Assembly: GCF_015751905.1 (NCBI RefSeq)
Contig: NZ_JADOUF010000001.1
Span: 3,720,001-3,784,000 of the forward strand
Length of the DNA: 64,000 nt
Direction: 5' to 3'
DNA from: Longispora fulva
Lineage (GTDB): Bacteria; Actinomycetota; Actinomycetes; Mycobacteriales; Micromonosporaceae
Part shown: positions 15,660-20,820 of the stretch, in pieces
Numbering within the stretch: position 1 is the stretch's first letter
Layout: every line of letters starts with the position of its first letter
The notes under the pieces: model-generated
The model's database searches: none
What the model was told of the DNA's origin: nothing
The model's input: the letters and a program-made list of their open reading frames with translations, nothing else
Translations under genes and position numbers: made by a program

Positions 15660-17096
15660 ATGCTTGGCCACGAGGAGCGCACAGTCACCGCCGACACCGG
15701 CCGCCCGGTGTCGCCCACCGCCGAAGCCATCCTCGGTGCCCCGGCCGGCTCCCACGCCCGCGCCGAGGCCGGCTGGGACCACCTCCGGACCAGTCGCCGG
15801 CTGGGCCGCACCGCCGCCGTCACCGACTACCTGCTGATCGCCGCCGGAATGGTGTCCCTGCTGGTCACCGACCGGCACCTGGTGGGCGACGGCGCGCGCC
15901 GGTTCGACGCGCTGACCCAGCTGCTGACCGGGGGCGGATTGTCGACGGACCGGTACTCGCTGGTCGGCCCCCTGTTCGCCGCTCCGGTGTGGTGGCTGGG
16001 CCGGGCGGCCGGTGACCCCGGGGGCTGGATCACCCACTACAACCTGGTCCTGTTCGCCCTCTCCCTCGGGCTGCTGTTCGGGCTGCTCCGCCGCCGGGTG
16101 GACGCGGTGCTGCTGCGCAGGTTCCTGCTGCTCCTGGTGGCCGGCAGCATGATCGCCCCGCACGTCAGCGACTTCTACGGCGAGACGTTCACCGCGATGA
16201 CCGTCGGGGTGGGGGTGCTGTGCGCGGTGGCGGTGGTCGGCCATCCGGCGCTGCGGGCCGCCGGCTGGGTCGCGATGACCCTGGGCGGGGCGAACACGAT
16301 GTCGACCCTGCCGGCGCTGGGGCTGGTCGGGTTGCGGCAGGGGGCGCGTACCCATCGGCTGCGTTTCGTTGTTCCGGTCCTGGTCGCGGCCGTCCTGGCC
16401 CTGGCGGAGTCCTGGGCGCGCCGGGGAAGCCCCTTCGATCAGGGGTACGGCACGGAGCGCTTCGACTTCCCGGTCCTCCTCGGCGTCCTGGCCATCCTGC
16501 TGTCCTTCGGCAAGGGCCTGGTCTTCTTCACCCCCGGCCTGCTCCTCCCCGCCCGCCGCCGGCTGCGGGGCCTGTACGACCCGGCCGCCGTCGACCTGTG
16601 GCGCGGCCAGGAGGCCTGGCTGTACTTCGTCGCCGGCCTCGTCGTCGTGTACGGCGGCTGGTGGGCCTGGAACGGCGACCTCTACTGGGGCCCGCGCTTC
16701 TTCCTGGTCGCCATCTTCCCGGCCTCCCTGGCCCTGGCCGCCTGGCTCACCCACCACGACTCGCGCCCGTCGCGGAACCTGGCGCTGCTGGGCGTGCTGG
16801 CCCTGTCCCTGTGGGTGGGCGCGAACAGCACGGTCTTCGAGATGCTGCTCTCGCCGACGTGCTACCCGCTGGCCACCAAACAGGAGGACTTCTGCCGGTA
16901 CGGCGTCCTGGAGAGCCGGCTGTGGTACCCGTGGCTGTCGTGGCCCGAGGACCTGTCGGCCACCCGCTGGGCGCAACTGCACTACCACGCCCTCGTCCTG
17001 TACTGGCTGGCGCTGCCCGTCATCATCCGCTCGTTCCCGGAGGTGCTGCGTCGCGTGCGCCAGGCCGTCCGGCGTCTCCCGGAGTGGCGGCTGTGA
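15660..17096 (+). CDS. Polytopic membrane protein, GT-C-like
   Basis: A 478-aa protein with a cytoplasmic N-terminus of about 55 residues and about ten membrane helices. Loop sequences such as LSTDRYSLVGPLFAAPVWW, HVSDFYGETFTAM and GDLYWGPRFFLVAIFP recall bacterial PMT/ArnT-like glycosyltransferases that use polyprenyl-phosphate sugars. I see no clear DxD or DE in the first loop, so the assignment is tentative. It ends 6 bp before the stop of the convergent peptide transporter and has no obvious operon partner. Confidence 0.55.
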   Translation: MLGHEERTVTADTGRPVSPTAEAILGAPAGSHARAEAGWDHLRTSRRLGRTAAVTDYLLIAAGMVSLLVTDRHLVGDGARRFDALTQLLTGGGLSTDRYSLVGPLFAAPVWWLGRAAGDPGGWITHYNLVLFALSLGLLFGLLRRRVDAVLLRRFLLLLVAGSMIAPHVSDFYGETFTAMTVGVGVLCAVAVVGHPALRAAGWVAMTLGGANTMSTLPALGLVGLRQGARTHRLRFVVPVLVAAVLALAESWARRGSPFDQGYGTERFDFPVLLGVLAILLSFGKGLVFFTPGLLLPARRRLRGLYDPAAVDLWRGQEAWLYFVAGLVVVYGGWWAWNGDLYWGPRFFLVAIFPASLALAAWLTHHDSRPSRNLALLGVLALSLWVGANSTVFEMLLSPTCYPLATKQEDFCRYGVLESRLWYPWLSWPEDLSATRWAQLHYHALVLYWLALPVIIRSFPEVLRRVRQAVRRLPEWRL

Positions 17097-17102
17097 CCGC
17101 GC

Positions 17103-18584
17103 CTAGTGGATGCCGCGCATCAGCGTGTGCAGCTGCCGGGTGAACCCGACGGCGGCCACCCCCAGCACCACGGACGCGATCCCGAGCACCATGAAGTACA
17201 CCGGCTGCGAGTAGTCCGCCCCGATCTTGGCGACCTGCCCGCCGAGGGCGTCCCCGACGGCCGTGGACAGGAACCACAGCCCCAACATCTGGCTCGCGTA
17301 CCTCACCGGGGCCAGTTTCGTCGTCGCAGACAGGCCCACGGGCGACAGGCACAGCTCGCCGCAGACCTGGAGCGCGTACACGGCGACCAGCCACAGCGGG
17401 GACACCAGGGTCTCGCCCACTGCGGCCCGGGCGGCGGCGGCCATCAGCATGAACGACAGCCCGTTGAGGATGAGCCCCATGCTGAACTTCAGCGGGGTGG
17501 ACAGCCGGTGCCCGGCCCTCACCCACAGCAGGGCGAACAGCGGCGAGCCGACGATGACGAAGACCGGGTTGACGGACTGCAGCCACGAGGCGGGCATGTC
17601 CCAGCCGAACACCACCCGGTCGGTCTCGTCCCGGGCGAACCGGTTGAGCACCGAGCCGGCCTGGTCGTAGATCAGCCAGAAGGCGGCGGCGAACAGGAAC
17701 AGCCACACGTACGCCTTCATCCGGCTGCGCTCGTCGGCGTCCAGCGACTTGTCGAGGAAGATCCGCGCGAAGTACCCGATGGCGACCAGGACCGTGAAGA
17801 CCGTGAGCCCGGTGACGACCCGGGAGACGGTGAGCGTGCCGGTGAGCGCGGCCCCGCCGACCAGCACGACGACGGCCGCGACGGCGATCCCCAGCCAGCG
17901 CAGCAGCGCGGGGCGCTCGGCGGCGGTCAGCGGGTTGTTCGGGTGGTCGCCGATGCCGTGCAGCCGGTTGCGGCCGAGCACGTACTGCACCACGCCCAGC
18001 GTCATGCCGAGGGCCGCCACCCCGAAGCCGAGGTGCCAGTTGACCTTCTCGCCGAGGTACCCGGTGATCAGGGGCGCGATGAACGCACCCAGGTTGATGC
18101 CCATGTAGAAGATCGAGAAGCCGGCGTCGCGGCGCACGTCGTCGGGGCCGTAGAGCCGGCCGACCATGGCCGAGATGTTCGGCTTGAGCAGGCCGGTGCC
18201 GATGGTGATCAGGCCCAGCCCGAGGAAGAACGTCGGCACGGTCGGCAGGATCATCGCGTAGTGCCCGGCGGCGATGACCATGCCGCCCCACAGCACGGAG
18301 CGGCGCGCGCCGAGCAGCCGGTCGGCGATCCAGCCGCCGGGCAGGGCCATCAGGTACACCATGGCGACGTAGACGCCGTAGAGCGCGTCGGCGTCGCCGT
18401 CGGCCCAGCCGAGCCCGCCGTGGGCGACGGTGGCCGTCAGGTACAGCACCAGGAGCGCCCGCATGCCGTAATAGCTGAAGCGTTCCCACATCTCGGTGAG
18501 GAACAACGTGGAGAGCGCCCTGGGGTGTCCGAAGAATCCTTCACCGTCCGTGGTCGGCTCGACCGGTGCCGTGATCTCGGACAT
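17103..18584 (-). CDS. POT/PTR-family proton-coupled peptide transporter
   Basis: A 493-aa protein with about 14 membrane helices. LFLTEMWERFSYYGMRALLVLYL near residue 30 is the PTR2 signature with the ExxER proton site, and FSIFYMGINLGAFIAP is the second family motif. It imports di- and tripeptides using the proton gradient in the cytoplasmic membrane. The start is well supported by GGAGGT 7 nt upstream. It is monocistronic and divergent from rbpA across about 300 bp. Confidence 0.93.
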   Translation of the reverse strand: MSEITAPVEPTTDGEGFFGHPRALSTLFLTEMWERFSYYGMRALLVLYLTATVAHGGLGWADGDADALYGVYVAMVYLMALPGGWIADRLLGARRSVLWGGMVIAAGHYAMILPTVPTFFLGLGLITIGTGLLKPNISAMVGRLYGPDDVRRDAGFSIFYMGINLGAFIAPLITGYLGEKVNWHLGFGVAALGMTLGVVQYVLGRNRLHGIGDHPNNPLTAAERPALLRWLGIAVAAVVVLVGGAALTGTLTVSRVVTGLTVFTVLVAIGYFARIFLDKSLDADERSRMKAYVWLFLFAAAFWLIYDQAGSVLNRFARDETDRVVFGWDMPASWLQSVNPVFVIVGSPLFALLWVRAGHRLSTPLKFSMGLILNGLSFMLMAAAARAAVGETLVSPLWLVAVYALQVCGELCLSPVGLSATTKLAPVRYASQMLGLWFLSTAVGDALGGQVAKIGADYSQPVYFMVLGIASVVLGVAAVGFTRQLHTLMRGIH

Positions 18585-18709
18585 TCGTTGTACCTCCTGT
18601 GATCGTGGCGCTAACCCTCAGTATCGAAGCGGCCCAGTGAGCCAGTCCTCGCAATCCGAATATTCGGCGGTAACCGGGGCAACCCCTCGTCCGTTCGGTC
18701 ACATTGGGG

Positions 18710-18782
18710 GGTGAGGGTACTCACCGCCACCCGCGAGGTACTACCCTCGACGGGGCCGGGGGCCGTAGTGACTCACCGTGAG
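18710..18782. promoter_or_regulatory. Clustered short inverted repeats between the POT gene and rbpA
   Basis: Two GTGAG/CTCAC dyads occur: GGTGAG-N4-CTCACC at 18710-18725 and CTCAC-C-GTGAG at 18772-18782. Both use the same half-site. They lie between the divergent transporter and rbpA promoters and could bind one regulator. The remainder of the 300-bp gap holds the promoter described separately and no gene. Confidence 0.35.
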
Positions 18783-18796
18783 AAATACCCTGTACG

Positions 18797-18823
18797 GGGA
18801 ACATGAGACGGGTCACGATCGTT
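18797..18823 (+). promoter_or_regulatory. Sigma-R/Sigma-H-like promoter of rbpA
   Basis: GGGAAC (18797-18802), an 18-nt spacer and GTT (18821-18823) match the GGAAT-N18-GTT consensus of the thiol-oxidative-stress sigma factor SigR. In Streptomyces rbpA is a known SigR target, so conservation is expected. The predicted leader is about 55 nt and contains the 10-bp sequence GTTGTACGCG twice (18830-18839, 18849-18858). Confidence 0.7.
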
Positions 18824-18885
18824 AAACCCGTTGTACGCGAGAGCGTCTGTTGTACGCGCACCACAGCCGGAGGGGAAAGCCGATC

Positions 18886-19233
18886 ATGGGCGAGCGCATG
18901 CTGCGCGGAAGCCGTCTCGGAGCTATCAGCTACGAGTCGGACCGAAACACCGAGTTGGCGCCTCGGCAGACTCGGGAGTACCTGTGCGCCAGGGGGCATC
19001 AGTTCGAGGTCCCGTTCGCGGTGGACGCCGAGGTTCCGCCGATCTGGGAGTGCAAGTTCGACGGCACCGTCGCCCGTCTCGTCGACGGTAGCGAGCCGGA
19101 GTCGAAGAAGGCGAAGCCGCCGCGCACCCACTGGGACATGCTGCTGGAGCGGCGTTCCATGTCGGAGCTCGAGGACATCCTCAACGAGCGTCTCGACGAG
19201 GTCCGCAGCCGTCGCGGTGGCCGCACGGTCTGA
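18886..19233 (+). CDS. rbpA: RNA polymerase-binding protein RbpA
   Basis: A 115-aa protein with MLRGSRLGAISYESDRN, APRQTREYLC, a central beta core and KPPRTHWDMLLERRSMSELEDILNERL, the sigma-interaction domain. All are diagnostic of actinobacterial RbpA, which binds RNA polymerase and group 1/2 sigma factors and stabilises the open complex. The start at 18886 follows GGAGGGGA and matches the family length. The frame is open upstream to 18850, but that part is not conserved. It has a SigR-type promoter and a strong terminator, so it is monocistronic. A Cys pair (residues about 33 and 54) resembles the Streptomyces zinc-binding type. Confidence 0.97.
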   Translation: MGERMLRGSRLGAISYESDRNTELAPRQTREYLCARGHQFEVPFAVDAEVPPIWECKFDGTVARLVDGSEPESKKAKPPRTHWDMLLERRSMSELEDILNERLDEVRSRRGGRTV

Positions 19234-19245
19234 CGCACGACGCCG

Positions 19246-19279
19246 AGGAGGCCCCGACCCTGGCGGGTCGGGGCCTCCT
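19246..19279 (+). terminator. rbpA terminator hairpin
   Basis: Perfect 15-bp arms, AGGAGGCCCCGACCC (19246-19260) and GGGTCGGGGCCTCCT (19265-19279), around the TGGC loop. It starts 12 bp after the rbpA stop and isolates rbpA from the downstream small gene. Confidence 0.85.
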
Positions 19280-19302
19280 GCTGTCGGGTCCCGACCAGAC
19301 TC

Positions 19303-19331
19303 TTGACTTTTTTCCAACGTCGGCTGATGCT
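19303..19331 (+). promoter_or_regulatory. Candidate housekeeping promoter of the 42-aa gene
   Basis: TTGACT (19303-19308), a 17-nt spacer and GATGCT (19326-19331). The -35 is strong for an actinomycete; the -10 is weak but keeps A at position 2 and T at position 6. It follows the rbpA terminator directly and would give a leader of about 30 nt ending in GGAAGGAAC before the ATG at 19370. Confidence 0.5.
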
Positions 19332-19369
19332 GGATTCGCCCAAGCACAACCTAACTGGAAGGAACAGCC

Positions 19370-19498
19370 ATGCGCGAAGTTCCCGTTGGTGGCGGCACCC
19401 GTCCCGGCACGCAGATCCCGCTCCGCTTCGTCGAGGTCGAGCCCCGCCTGCCGAACTACGAGGTCACCCCTGGCGGCGGCCGGGTTCTCACGAACTAG
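19370..19498 (+). CDS. Small protein of unknown function (42 aa)
   Basis: A 43-codon frame beginning MREVPVGGGTRPGTQIP and ending GGGRVLTN. GGAAGG lies 7-8 nt before the ATG, 35 of 42 third positions are G or C, and the gene sits between its own promoter-like TTGACT and a strong terminator (19518-19547). It has no Cys, no signal peptide and no membrane helix; it is Gly/Pro/Val-rich with a central RFVEVEPRLPNYEV. I do not recognise it. Position between rbpA and fxsA suggests a constitutive small protein. It may be conserved only in close relatives. Confidence 0.7.
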   Translation: MREVPVGGGTRPGTQIPLRFVEVEPRLPNYEVTPGGGRVLTN

Positions 19499-19517
19499 TC
19501 GCACCACACACATATAG

Positions 19518-19547
19518 AAAAGGGCCGCCCTTCGGGGCGGCCCTTTT
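19518..19547. terminator. Bidirectional intrinsic terminator
   Basis: Arms AAAAGGGCCGCCC (19518-19530) and GGGCGGCCCTTTT (19535-19547) with a TTCG tetraloop, 13 perfect pairs flanked by A-run and T-run. It serves the 42-aa gene on plus and fxsA on minus, whose stop is 6 bp away. Confidence 0.93.
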
Positions 19548-19553
19548 CGCAGC

Positions 19554-20021
19554 TCAGACGATCTCGCCCTCGATGGGCGCCTCGGGGCTCGCACCCCGCT
19601 GGGACCTGATCCTGACGGTACGCGGCCCGAACAGGTCGTTCGTCGTCCTCGGGTCGAGCCTTCGGGTGGCCACCTGCTCGACCAGCCCCCGGAACAGCCC
19701 CCGGGTGGGCGGGGCGATCATCAGCAGCCCGAACAGGTCGGAGACGAACCCGGGCACCAGCATCAGGATCCCGCCGACCACGACGAGCACCCCGTCCGTG
19801 GCGTGCCGACCCGGAGCCCTGCCCGCCTGCACGTCCGCCTGGACGGCCCGCCAGGCCCGGCCACCCTCCCGGCGCAGCAGCCAGCCGCCGAGCGCCGAGG
19901 TGGCCAGCACCAGCAGGACGGTCCACCCCAGGCCGATCACCTGACCGACGGCGATCAACGCCGCGATCTCCACGATCGGGACGATGATCAGTGCCGCGAC
20001 GATCAGCCAGAGGGTACGCAT
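19554..20021 (-). CDS. FxsA-family membrane protein
   Basis: A 155-aa protein with two N-terminal helices, LWLIVAALIIVPIVEIAALIAVGQVIGLGWTVLLVLAT in pieces, followed by LLRREGGRAWRAV, and a second hydrophobic pair around VLVVVGGILMLVPGFVSDLFGLLMIAPPTR, the FxsA signature. The E. coli homologue relieves exclusion of phage T7 by F plasmid; the physiological role is unknown. The ATG at 20021 puts the start at the first helix. It is 7 bp downstream of ppm and forms the end of the lnt-ppm-fxsA operon. Confidence 0.88.
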   Translation of the reverse strand: MRTLWLIVAALIIVPIVEIAALIAVGQVIGLGWTVLLVLATSALGGWLLRREGGRAWRAVQADVQAGRAPGRHATDGVLVVVGGILMLVPGFVSDLFGLLMIAPPTRGLFRGLVEQVATRRLDPRTTNDLFGPRTVRIRSQRGASPEAPIEGEIV

Positions 20022-20028
20022 GCCGGGT

Positions 20029-20820
20029 TCAACGCTTCGCGGTGCCGCTCTTCTTCCCGGGCAGCCGGTCGCGGATCGCCCAGCCGGTGACCTTGAACAG
20101 CGCCTCGCGGATGATCGAGCCACTCATCTTGGACACGCCGTGCACCCGCTCGTGGAACGTGATCGGCACCTCGACCAGCTTGCACCCGGTCTTGTACGCC
20201 CGGTAGGTCAGGTCGACCTGGAAGCAGTAGCCGTGCGAGATGACCGAGTCCAGGTCGATCTTGTCGAGCAGGGGCAGCCGGTAGGCCCGGTAGCCGCCGG
20301 TGGCGTCGCTGACGGGCATGCCCAGCATGATCCGGATGTACAGGTTGCCGCCCCGGGACAGGAACAGCCGGCGCTTCGGCCAGTTCACCACGGAACCGCC
20401 CGGGATGTAGCGGGCGCCCAGCGCGCCGTCCGCCCCGGCCGCCACGGCGTCCAGGAGGCGGTGCAGCTGCTCCGGGGCGTGGGAGCCGTCGGCGTCCATC
20501 TCGCACACGACGTCGTAGCCGTGCTCCTTGGCCCAGCCGAAACCGGCGATGTACGCGGCCCCGAGCCCCTCCTTGCCCTTGCGGTGCAGCACGTGCACCT
20601 GCGGGTCGGCGGCGGCCAGCTCGTCGGCCACCGCACCCGTCCCGTCGGGGCTGTTGTCGTCAGCGACGAGGATGTCCACCTGGGGGACCGCACGGCGTAC
20701 ACGATCGACGATGAGCCGGACGTTCTCCAGCTCGTTGTACGTCGGGATCACCACAAGGACCCGGCCAACTCCGGGGTAACCCTCCTCCGCCGGGATCGAC
20801 GGTGTGGTGTTCTCGGTCAC
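20029..20820 (-). CDS. ppm1: Polyprenol monophosphomannose synthase
   Basis: A 263-aa GT2 enzyme: [28 protein letters not shown], the DxD motif in CEMDADGSH, and GARYIPGG...NWPKRR. It transfers mannose from GDP-Man to polyprenyl phosphate; the product feeds lipomannan and protein O-mannosylation outside the membrane. No C-terminal membrane anchor is present, so it is the soluble actinobacterial type that pairs with Lnt. Its start overlaps the lnt stop by 4 nt. In mycobacteria the two activities are fused as Ppm1, so the coupling here matches the family's biology. Confidence 0.93.

Follow-up and report, generated by a model that had tools for sequence, protein, structure and literature searches.

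Does the gap between rbpA and fxsA in Longispora fulva hold a small gene of its own, or a frame that arose by chance? We addressed this question in a window of 64,000 nucleotides (the whole stretch of DNA that was analysed; G000:C1:3720001-3784000, within an 8.68 Mb genome), for which the original prediction had proposed an independent and uncatalogued small gene. The frame itself is real, running from an ATG at 19370 to a TAG stop at 19498 (42 aa plus stop), and the genes on either side are rbpA and fxsA, as had been proposed (Table 1). In a collection of named genomes, the one relative of FxsA came from a Micromonosporaceae MAG, at 58% identity. The Pfam-matched neighbours in the window comprise, besides these two, a POT transporter, a glycosyltransferase, an apolipoprotein acyltransferase, a YCII protein and a LuxR-type regulator. 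In our assessment the frame is very probably a translated small gene. That it belongs to a functional, fast-evolving and genus-restricted family of small-protein genes, with one unit here and two in tandem in a sister species, also appears probable and is held with somewhat less confidence.

Table 1 Features of the small unit between rbpA and fxsA, and the frames of the related units in the sister species.
Feature	Position	Strand	Evidence
rbpA, upstream neighbour	18886..19233	+	PF13397, E 7.5e-44
rbpA 3' hairpin, 14-bp perfect stem, no T-run	19246..19279 (arms 19246-19259 / 19266-19279)	+	sequence
-35-like TTGACT; TTGACTTTT-x-T-xx-AACG common with first sister unit	19303..19308	+	sequence, comparison
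Weak -10-like GATGCT (xAxxxT), 17-bp spacing to TTGACT	19326..19331	+	sequence
Shine-Dalgarno GGAAGGA, 6 nt 5' of ATG	19357..19363	+	sequence
42-aa ORF MREVPVGGGTRPGTQIPLRFVEVEPRLPNYEVTPGGGRVLTN	19370..19498	+	ORF list; sister relatives
GCACCACA motif, 2 nt 3' of stop, common to all three units	19501..19508	+	comparison
14-bp hairpin with TTCG loop (19517-19530 / TTCG / 19535-19548), likely intrinsic terminator	19517..19548	+	sequence
fxsA, convergent neighbour	19554..20024	-	PF04186, E 3.4e-35
First sister frame MREVPLREVPLEPAVREIPVDALAFEVPLDIAFEVQPGIELAA, 43 aa	G001:C23	-	
Second sister frame MREVEPGVGGRLPAETDVPIMLPAETDVPTMPAEAEIDMPAL, 42 aa	G001:C23	-	

The TTGACT element and the Shine-Dalgarno sequence that had been predicted for the frame are both present, and the GATGCT hexamer recurs in the second unit of the sister species. 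The predicted hairpin with a tetraloop is also present, but its stem is 14 bp rather than 13 bp, and what had been read as a T-run belongs to the stem, of which it forms the 3' end. Likewise, the perfect rbpA hairpin just upstream stands as described, with a stem of 14 bp, but no T-run accompanies it. Because of its A/T ends, the ORF hairpin could also serve the convergent fxsA, and 19517-19548 is possibly a common terminator for the 42-aa unit and fxsA. Viewed as a stand-alone gene, the unit thus offers a complete frame with a Shine-Dalgarno sequence, a promoter-like element and a hairpin, the promoter and the terminator being likenesses in sequence only.

When hairpins were counted as perfect stems of 10 or more, a single one of the 130 ATG frames of 30–60 aa in the window combined a Shine-Dalgarno sequence with a hairpin. 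This was the 42-aa ORF, which also carries the TTGAC element, and no such frame occurred in 10 simulated windows (order-1 Markov). A consensus scan of positions 18600-20100 (9-of-12) listed no promoter, leaving TTGACT/GATGCT uncalled, and its terminator part did not list the hairpin at 19517-19548. The sole terminator-like site of that scan lay at 19286-19302, with the TTGACT region as its T-rich tail (mean of 0.5 in shuffles).

The codon statistics by themselves are weak, modest signs of coding. G+C by codon position was 0.78, 0.54 and 0.83 in the window ORF, and the dip at codon position 2 was seen in all three frames (window and two sister). The codon score of the window ORF exceeded that of nucleotide shuffles (P 0.0008) and was lower than that of one antisense frame (0.118 versus 0.146 bits per codon); of the 104 short ATG frames in the window, 42% scored as well or better. 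The original prediction gave the correct GC3 value for the ORF and took it as a sign of coding. Pfam-matched neighbours, however, taken from a list already restricted to GC3 above 0.82, have values of 0.87–0.98, making the ORF low for this genome, and the GC3 argument therefore does not carry the case.

The evidence that does so came from a comparison within the genus, made between Longispora fulva and one other species. At the rbpA 3' site of this sister species (G001:C23, minus strand), two different units were found in tandem. All three frames (42 aa in the window; 43 and 42 aa in the sister) start with MREV, and both sister units possess a TTGAC element, a hexamer resembling a -10 box with a spacing of 17 or 18 bp, a Shine-Dalgarno sequence and a hairpin of their own, of 13 and 15 bp respectively (one G-U allowed). 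The presence of a hairpin between two co-directional sister units suggests that the hairpin is part of the unit, and not merely the terminus of fxsA. The motif GCACCACAYA lies 3' of the stop in each case, at 2 nt in the window, 14 nt in the first sister unit and 8 nt in the second, and might serve for processing or for contact with an RNA partner. The 5' leaders of both sister units (G001:C23) also have a small stem-like TGTCC-AYATA-GGA(C/G)A element, which is absent from the window unit.

Stops or frameshifts in homologous intergenic DNA, named beforehand as what would count against the gene, were looked for in this one sister species, where both frames proved to be intact, of about equal length, with the same start and with signals of their own. 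An independent, uncatalogued small gene is therefore the best reading of the locus, as had been proposed, and the two sister frames support it. The earlier statement that the peptide resembles nothing recognisable holds for known families and fails for these two relatives; what had been missed is its membership of a small family, genus-restricted as far as searched. Judged by comparison of the sequences, the frame did not arise by chance but is probably part of a real, small gene family confined to this genus.

The bodies of the three peptides have diverged strongly. Between the two species, rbpA is identical at 314 of 348 DNA positions, the Ppm1-like protein at 211 of 258 residues and FxsA at 101 of 155, while the three peptides have little in common apart from their length, their start and repeated [E/D/Q][V/I]P steps. 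They differ in net charge (+1, -6 and -7) and align weakly in pairwise comparisons (shuffle fractions 0.007, 0.028 and 0.081). The motif [EDQ][VI]x?P, which was chosen after looking, occurs 4, 5 and 3 times in the three peptides and is enriched after residue 4 with shuffle P values of 5e-5, 2e-4 and 0.039. MREV is encoded by differing synonymous codons from unit to unit. Inside the sister frames, all four DNA repeat segments are in frame, and no such repeats arose when either frame was shuffled 200 times. Four of the five repeat mismatches in the second sister frame fall at third positions; in the longest internal repeat of the first, the mismatch phases are 2,2,3,2,2,1, so that third positions are not favoured. 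Taken together, the in-frame repeats, the synonymous MREV codons and the kept length favour a translated peptide, though not decisively. As the sole detected relatives are two equally small sister genes, the family would be young and quickly changing.

These data bear on the alternative that the function lies in the RNA, that is, in the GCACCACA motif and the hairpin, with the frame being incidental or a mere translation handle. The best conserved pieces are the start region and the 3' untranslated part, the folding of the unit is somewhat better than that of shuffled sequences (z -2.11; equalled in 7 of 200), and the 3' end gives a sub-threshold Rfam match (STnc320, E 0.0022, 31.3 of 50 bits). 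By contrast, no Rfam family reached its gathering score in the window or at the sister locus, and features that pertain to translation are maintained: the frame length (42, 43 and 42), a Shine-Dalgarno sequence in all three units, the in-frame repeats and the synonymous variation in MREV. A small RNA is thus unlikely, and is the best placed of the alternatives.

The distribution of the unit was then assessed with patterns built on the start and the 3' motif, which detect relatives alike in both, so that differing relatives elsewhere would escape. AGGA-N3-11-ATG-N115-145-GCACCACAYA, with the second codon free, gave three sites in two genomes, these being the three units, and the reversed-pattern control gave none in the same two genomes. 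A stricter family pattern gave seven sites in six of 354 family genomes, three of which were the units. The other four, outside the genus, belonged to frames of 8, 294, 237 and 13 codons and hence were no short-frame relatives. Since the reversed control of this pattern gave nine sites, none of them in this genus, the family hits outside the genus are background. An order pattern (MREVP start, AGGA upstream) was met at 26 places in 397 genomes, the window's own and 25 others (reversed control 3). The sequence at each of these 25 was inspected, and in no case does a frame of 30–60 aa start there: 15 places in genus g4 have frames of 79 aa, which are too long and which we take to be GntR-like, and the remaining 10 have 6, 8, 94, 101, 142 and 200 codons, with four running off the stretch. 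A class scan matched one of 394 genomes, the own genome alone; the sister species was not among the genomes drawn for the order and class scans.

At the rbpA 3' site itself, two of 62 stretches (57 distinct genomes, one stretch being shorter than 300 nt) had a 30–60 aa frame with a Shine-Dalgarno sequence and a hairpin on the rbpA strand, both in this genus, under settings (11-bp stem, one G-U, 900 nt) that were fixed after the sister units had been seen. An earlier scan had found one of 62, missing the sister units because its stems had to be free of G-U pairs and its range was 700 nt. No such unit was present 3' of rbpA in any of the 55 other-genus genomes, in keeping with the rbpA-fxsA gap being a landing site only. 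An FxsA-like frame was found within the stretch in 19 of 28 and 26 of 32 non-genus rbpA loci, in two sets that share 5 genomes. The space after rbpA looks like an insertion slot; in two genomes of genus g62, other sequence fills it. A POT-family peptide transporter gene (17103-18584 in the window) is divergent from rbpA in this genus and also adjoins rbpA in these two genomes (L047 and L048). A link between the unit and this transporter was dropped, as the g62 genomes have the same arrangement without the unit.

A profile of the three peptides, which recovers its members with weight because it was constructed from them, found nothing else below E 0.038 in 61 genomes. Weak peptide matches (E up to 1) in 57 of the 61 were judged to be chance: the best outside the own site had E values of 0.0024 and up and sit in frames of 280–294 aa, which the own genome contains as well (E 0.053) and which are presumably ribosomal protein L2. 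Known families matching the peptides were absent from Pfam, NCBIfam, PHROGs and PADLOC; the Pfam search extended to E 1 for the window peptide and to E 0.001 for the sister peptides. Among viral contigs, 28 stretches matched the pattern, four of which had frames of 30–55 aa, none with AGGA in the 15 upstream bases. By tblastn, the best matches of the window peptide had E values of 0.5 in phages and 2 in plasmids, and the first sister peptide matched nothing in plasmids. A profile search of the PDB gave no hits, and no literature on this unit was found among open-licence papers.

Restriction to one genus, low codon bias and a diverged body would also fit a proto-gene that is transcribed and perhaps translated, has no function and persists in two species by chance, in the manner of pervasive translation. 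According to PMC9094748, most of the new short M. tuberculosis ORFs (Ribo-RET set) show no sign of purifying selection. However, three units carry the full set of signals, two of them in tandem in one species, and the start and the 3' motif are the same despite the diverged body, which makes a proto-gene improbable, and it ranks after a small RNA.

The least probable of the three main alternatives is a RiPP-like precursor, with a very short conserved start, a variable repeat-bearing core and modifying enzymes encoded elsewhere. The variable body, the tandem copies and the in-frame internal repeats of the sister frames are consistent with such a precursor, as are a methyltransferase gene adjoining the sister units and a nearby window frame (15660-17096, 478 aa) that has no Pfam match and therefore no assigned role. 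Conversely, there were no RiPP enzymes among the Pfam-matched window neighbours, none of the peptides matched an NCBIfam precursor model (E up to 10), Cys and Ser are absent from all three, and a conserved start of four residues is short for a leader. The methyltransferase family of the sister is widespread (84 of 150 family genomes), often has a short upstream frame of its own, and was not matched in this genome at E 1e-30 by any of the 18 first-look candidates scored out of 53. Partnership with the sister's methyltransferase was dropped on these results.

In a separate observation, 12 of 20 loci of this methyltransferase, which is of the Methyltransf_25 type (L065:13246-14001 (-), L146-L164), have an upstream ATG/GTG frame of 26-35 codons. 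These frames have a Shine-Dalgarno-like word, begin 58-83 nt upstream and run into the methyltransferase start, and may encode a possible leader peptide.

For the 42-aa frame itself, a leader peptide or attenuator was rejected because no co-directional gene lies directly downstream (fxsA is convergent in the window), and a type I toxin because the peptide, by inspection of its composition, is not hydrophobic and membrane-spanning but has charged and Pro residues throughout.

For the favoured reading, a small-protein gene family, we propose that the housekeeping holoenzyme would transcribe the unit from its sigma-70-like promoter, giving a short monocistronic mRNA that ends at the hairpin. Its translation would yield a mostly disordered peptide, for which the poor AlphaFold prediction (pLDDT 66.7, pTM 0.17, three sequences) is weak evidence. 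The [E/D/Q][V/I]P steps, of which each peptide has 3-5, might then bind a host protein, the peptide serving as a multivalent linear-motif ligand or decoy. If action were via such short steps, only the start, the length and the motif would need keeping, so that the rest could drift. This multi-motif mechanism is tentative and, in our assessment, less likely than not. A specific version of it, in which the peptides would mimic the FtsZ C-terminal motif, compete for FtsZ-binding partners and tune septation, with rapid turnover of motif number as dosage tuning, is very improbable; the organism's own FtsZ frame ends in DDVDVPDFLKNGA (DDVDVPDFLK).

If translated, the unit offers a concise example of a bacterial small-protein family in the course of change, in which the start, the length, a short motif and the 3' element stay, while nearly all else differs between two species. 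At such a locus, a few strains would suffice to test what selection preserves in a micro-gene. Systems of this kind are ordinary; the clarity with which moving and fixed parts can be told apart is uncommon.

Among known systems, the FtsZ C-terminal motif has the same acidic-[V/I]-P step, and one sister repeat reads ETDVPIML, but the likeness extends to three residues; the wider motif appears no more than once across the three peptides. RiPP precursors are encoded by short genes with a constant start, a variable body and tandem copies, all of which this family shares, whereas no known modification enzyme was seen beside the window gene, the conserved start has four residues, and Cys and Ser are lacking. 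Finally, the new M. tuberculosis ORFs of PMC9094748 are alike in being short frames missed by usual annotation and weak in codon bias; the unit in the window differs from them in its Shine-Dalgarno sequence, its own promoter-like element and its hairpin, and in having tandem relatives in a sister species with a common 3' motif.
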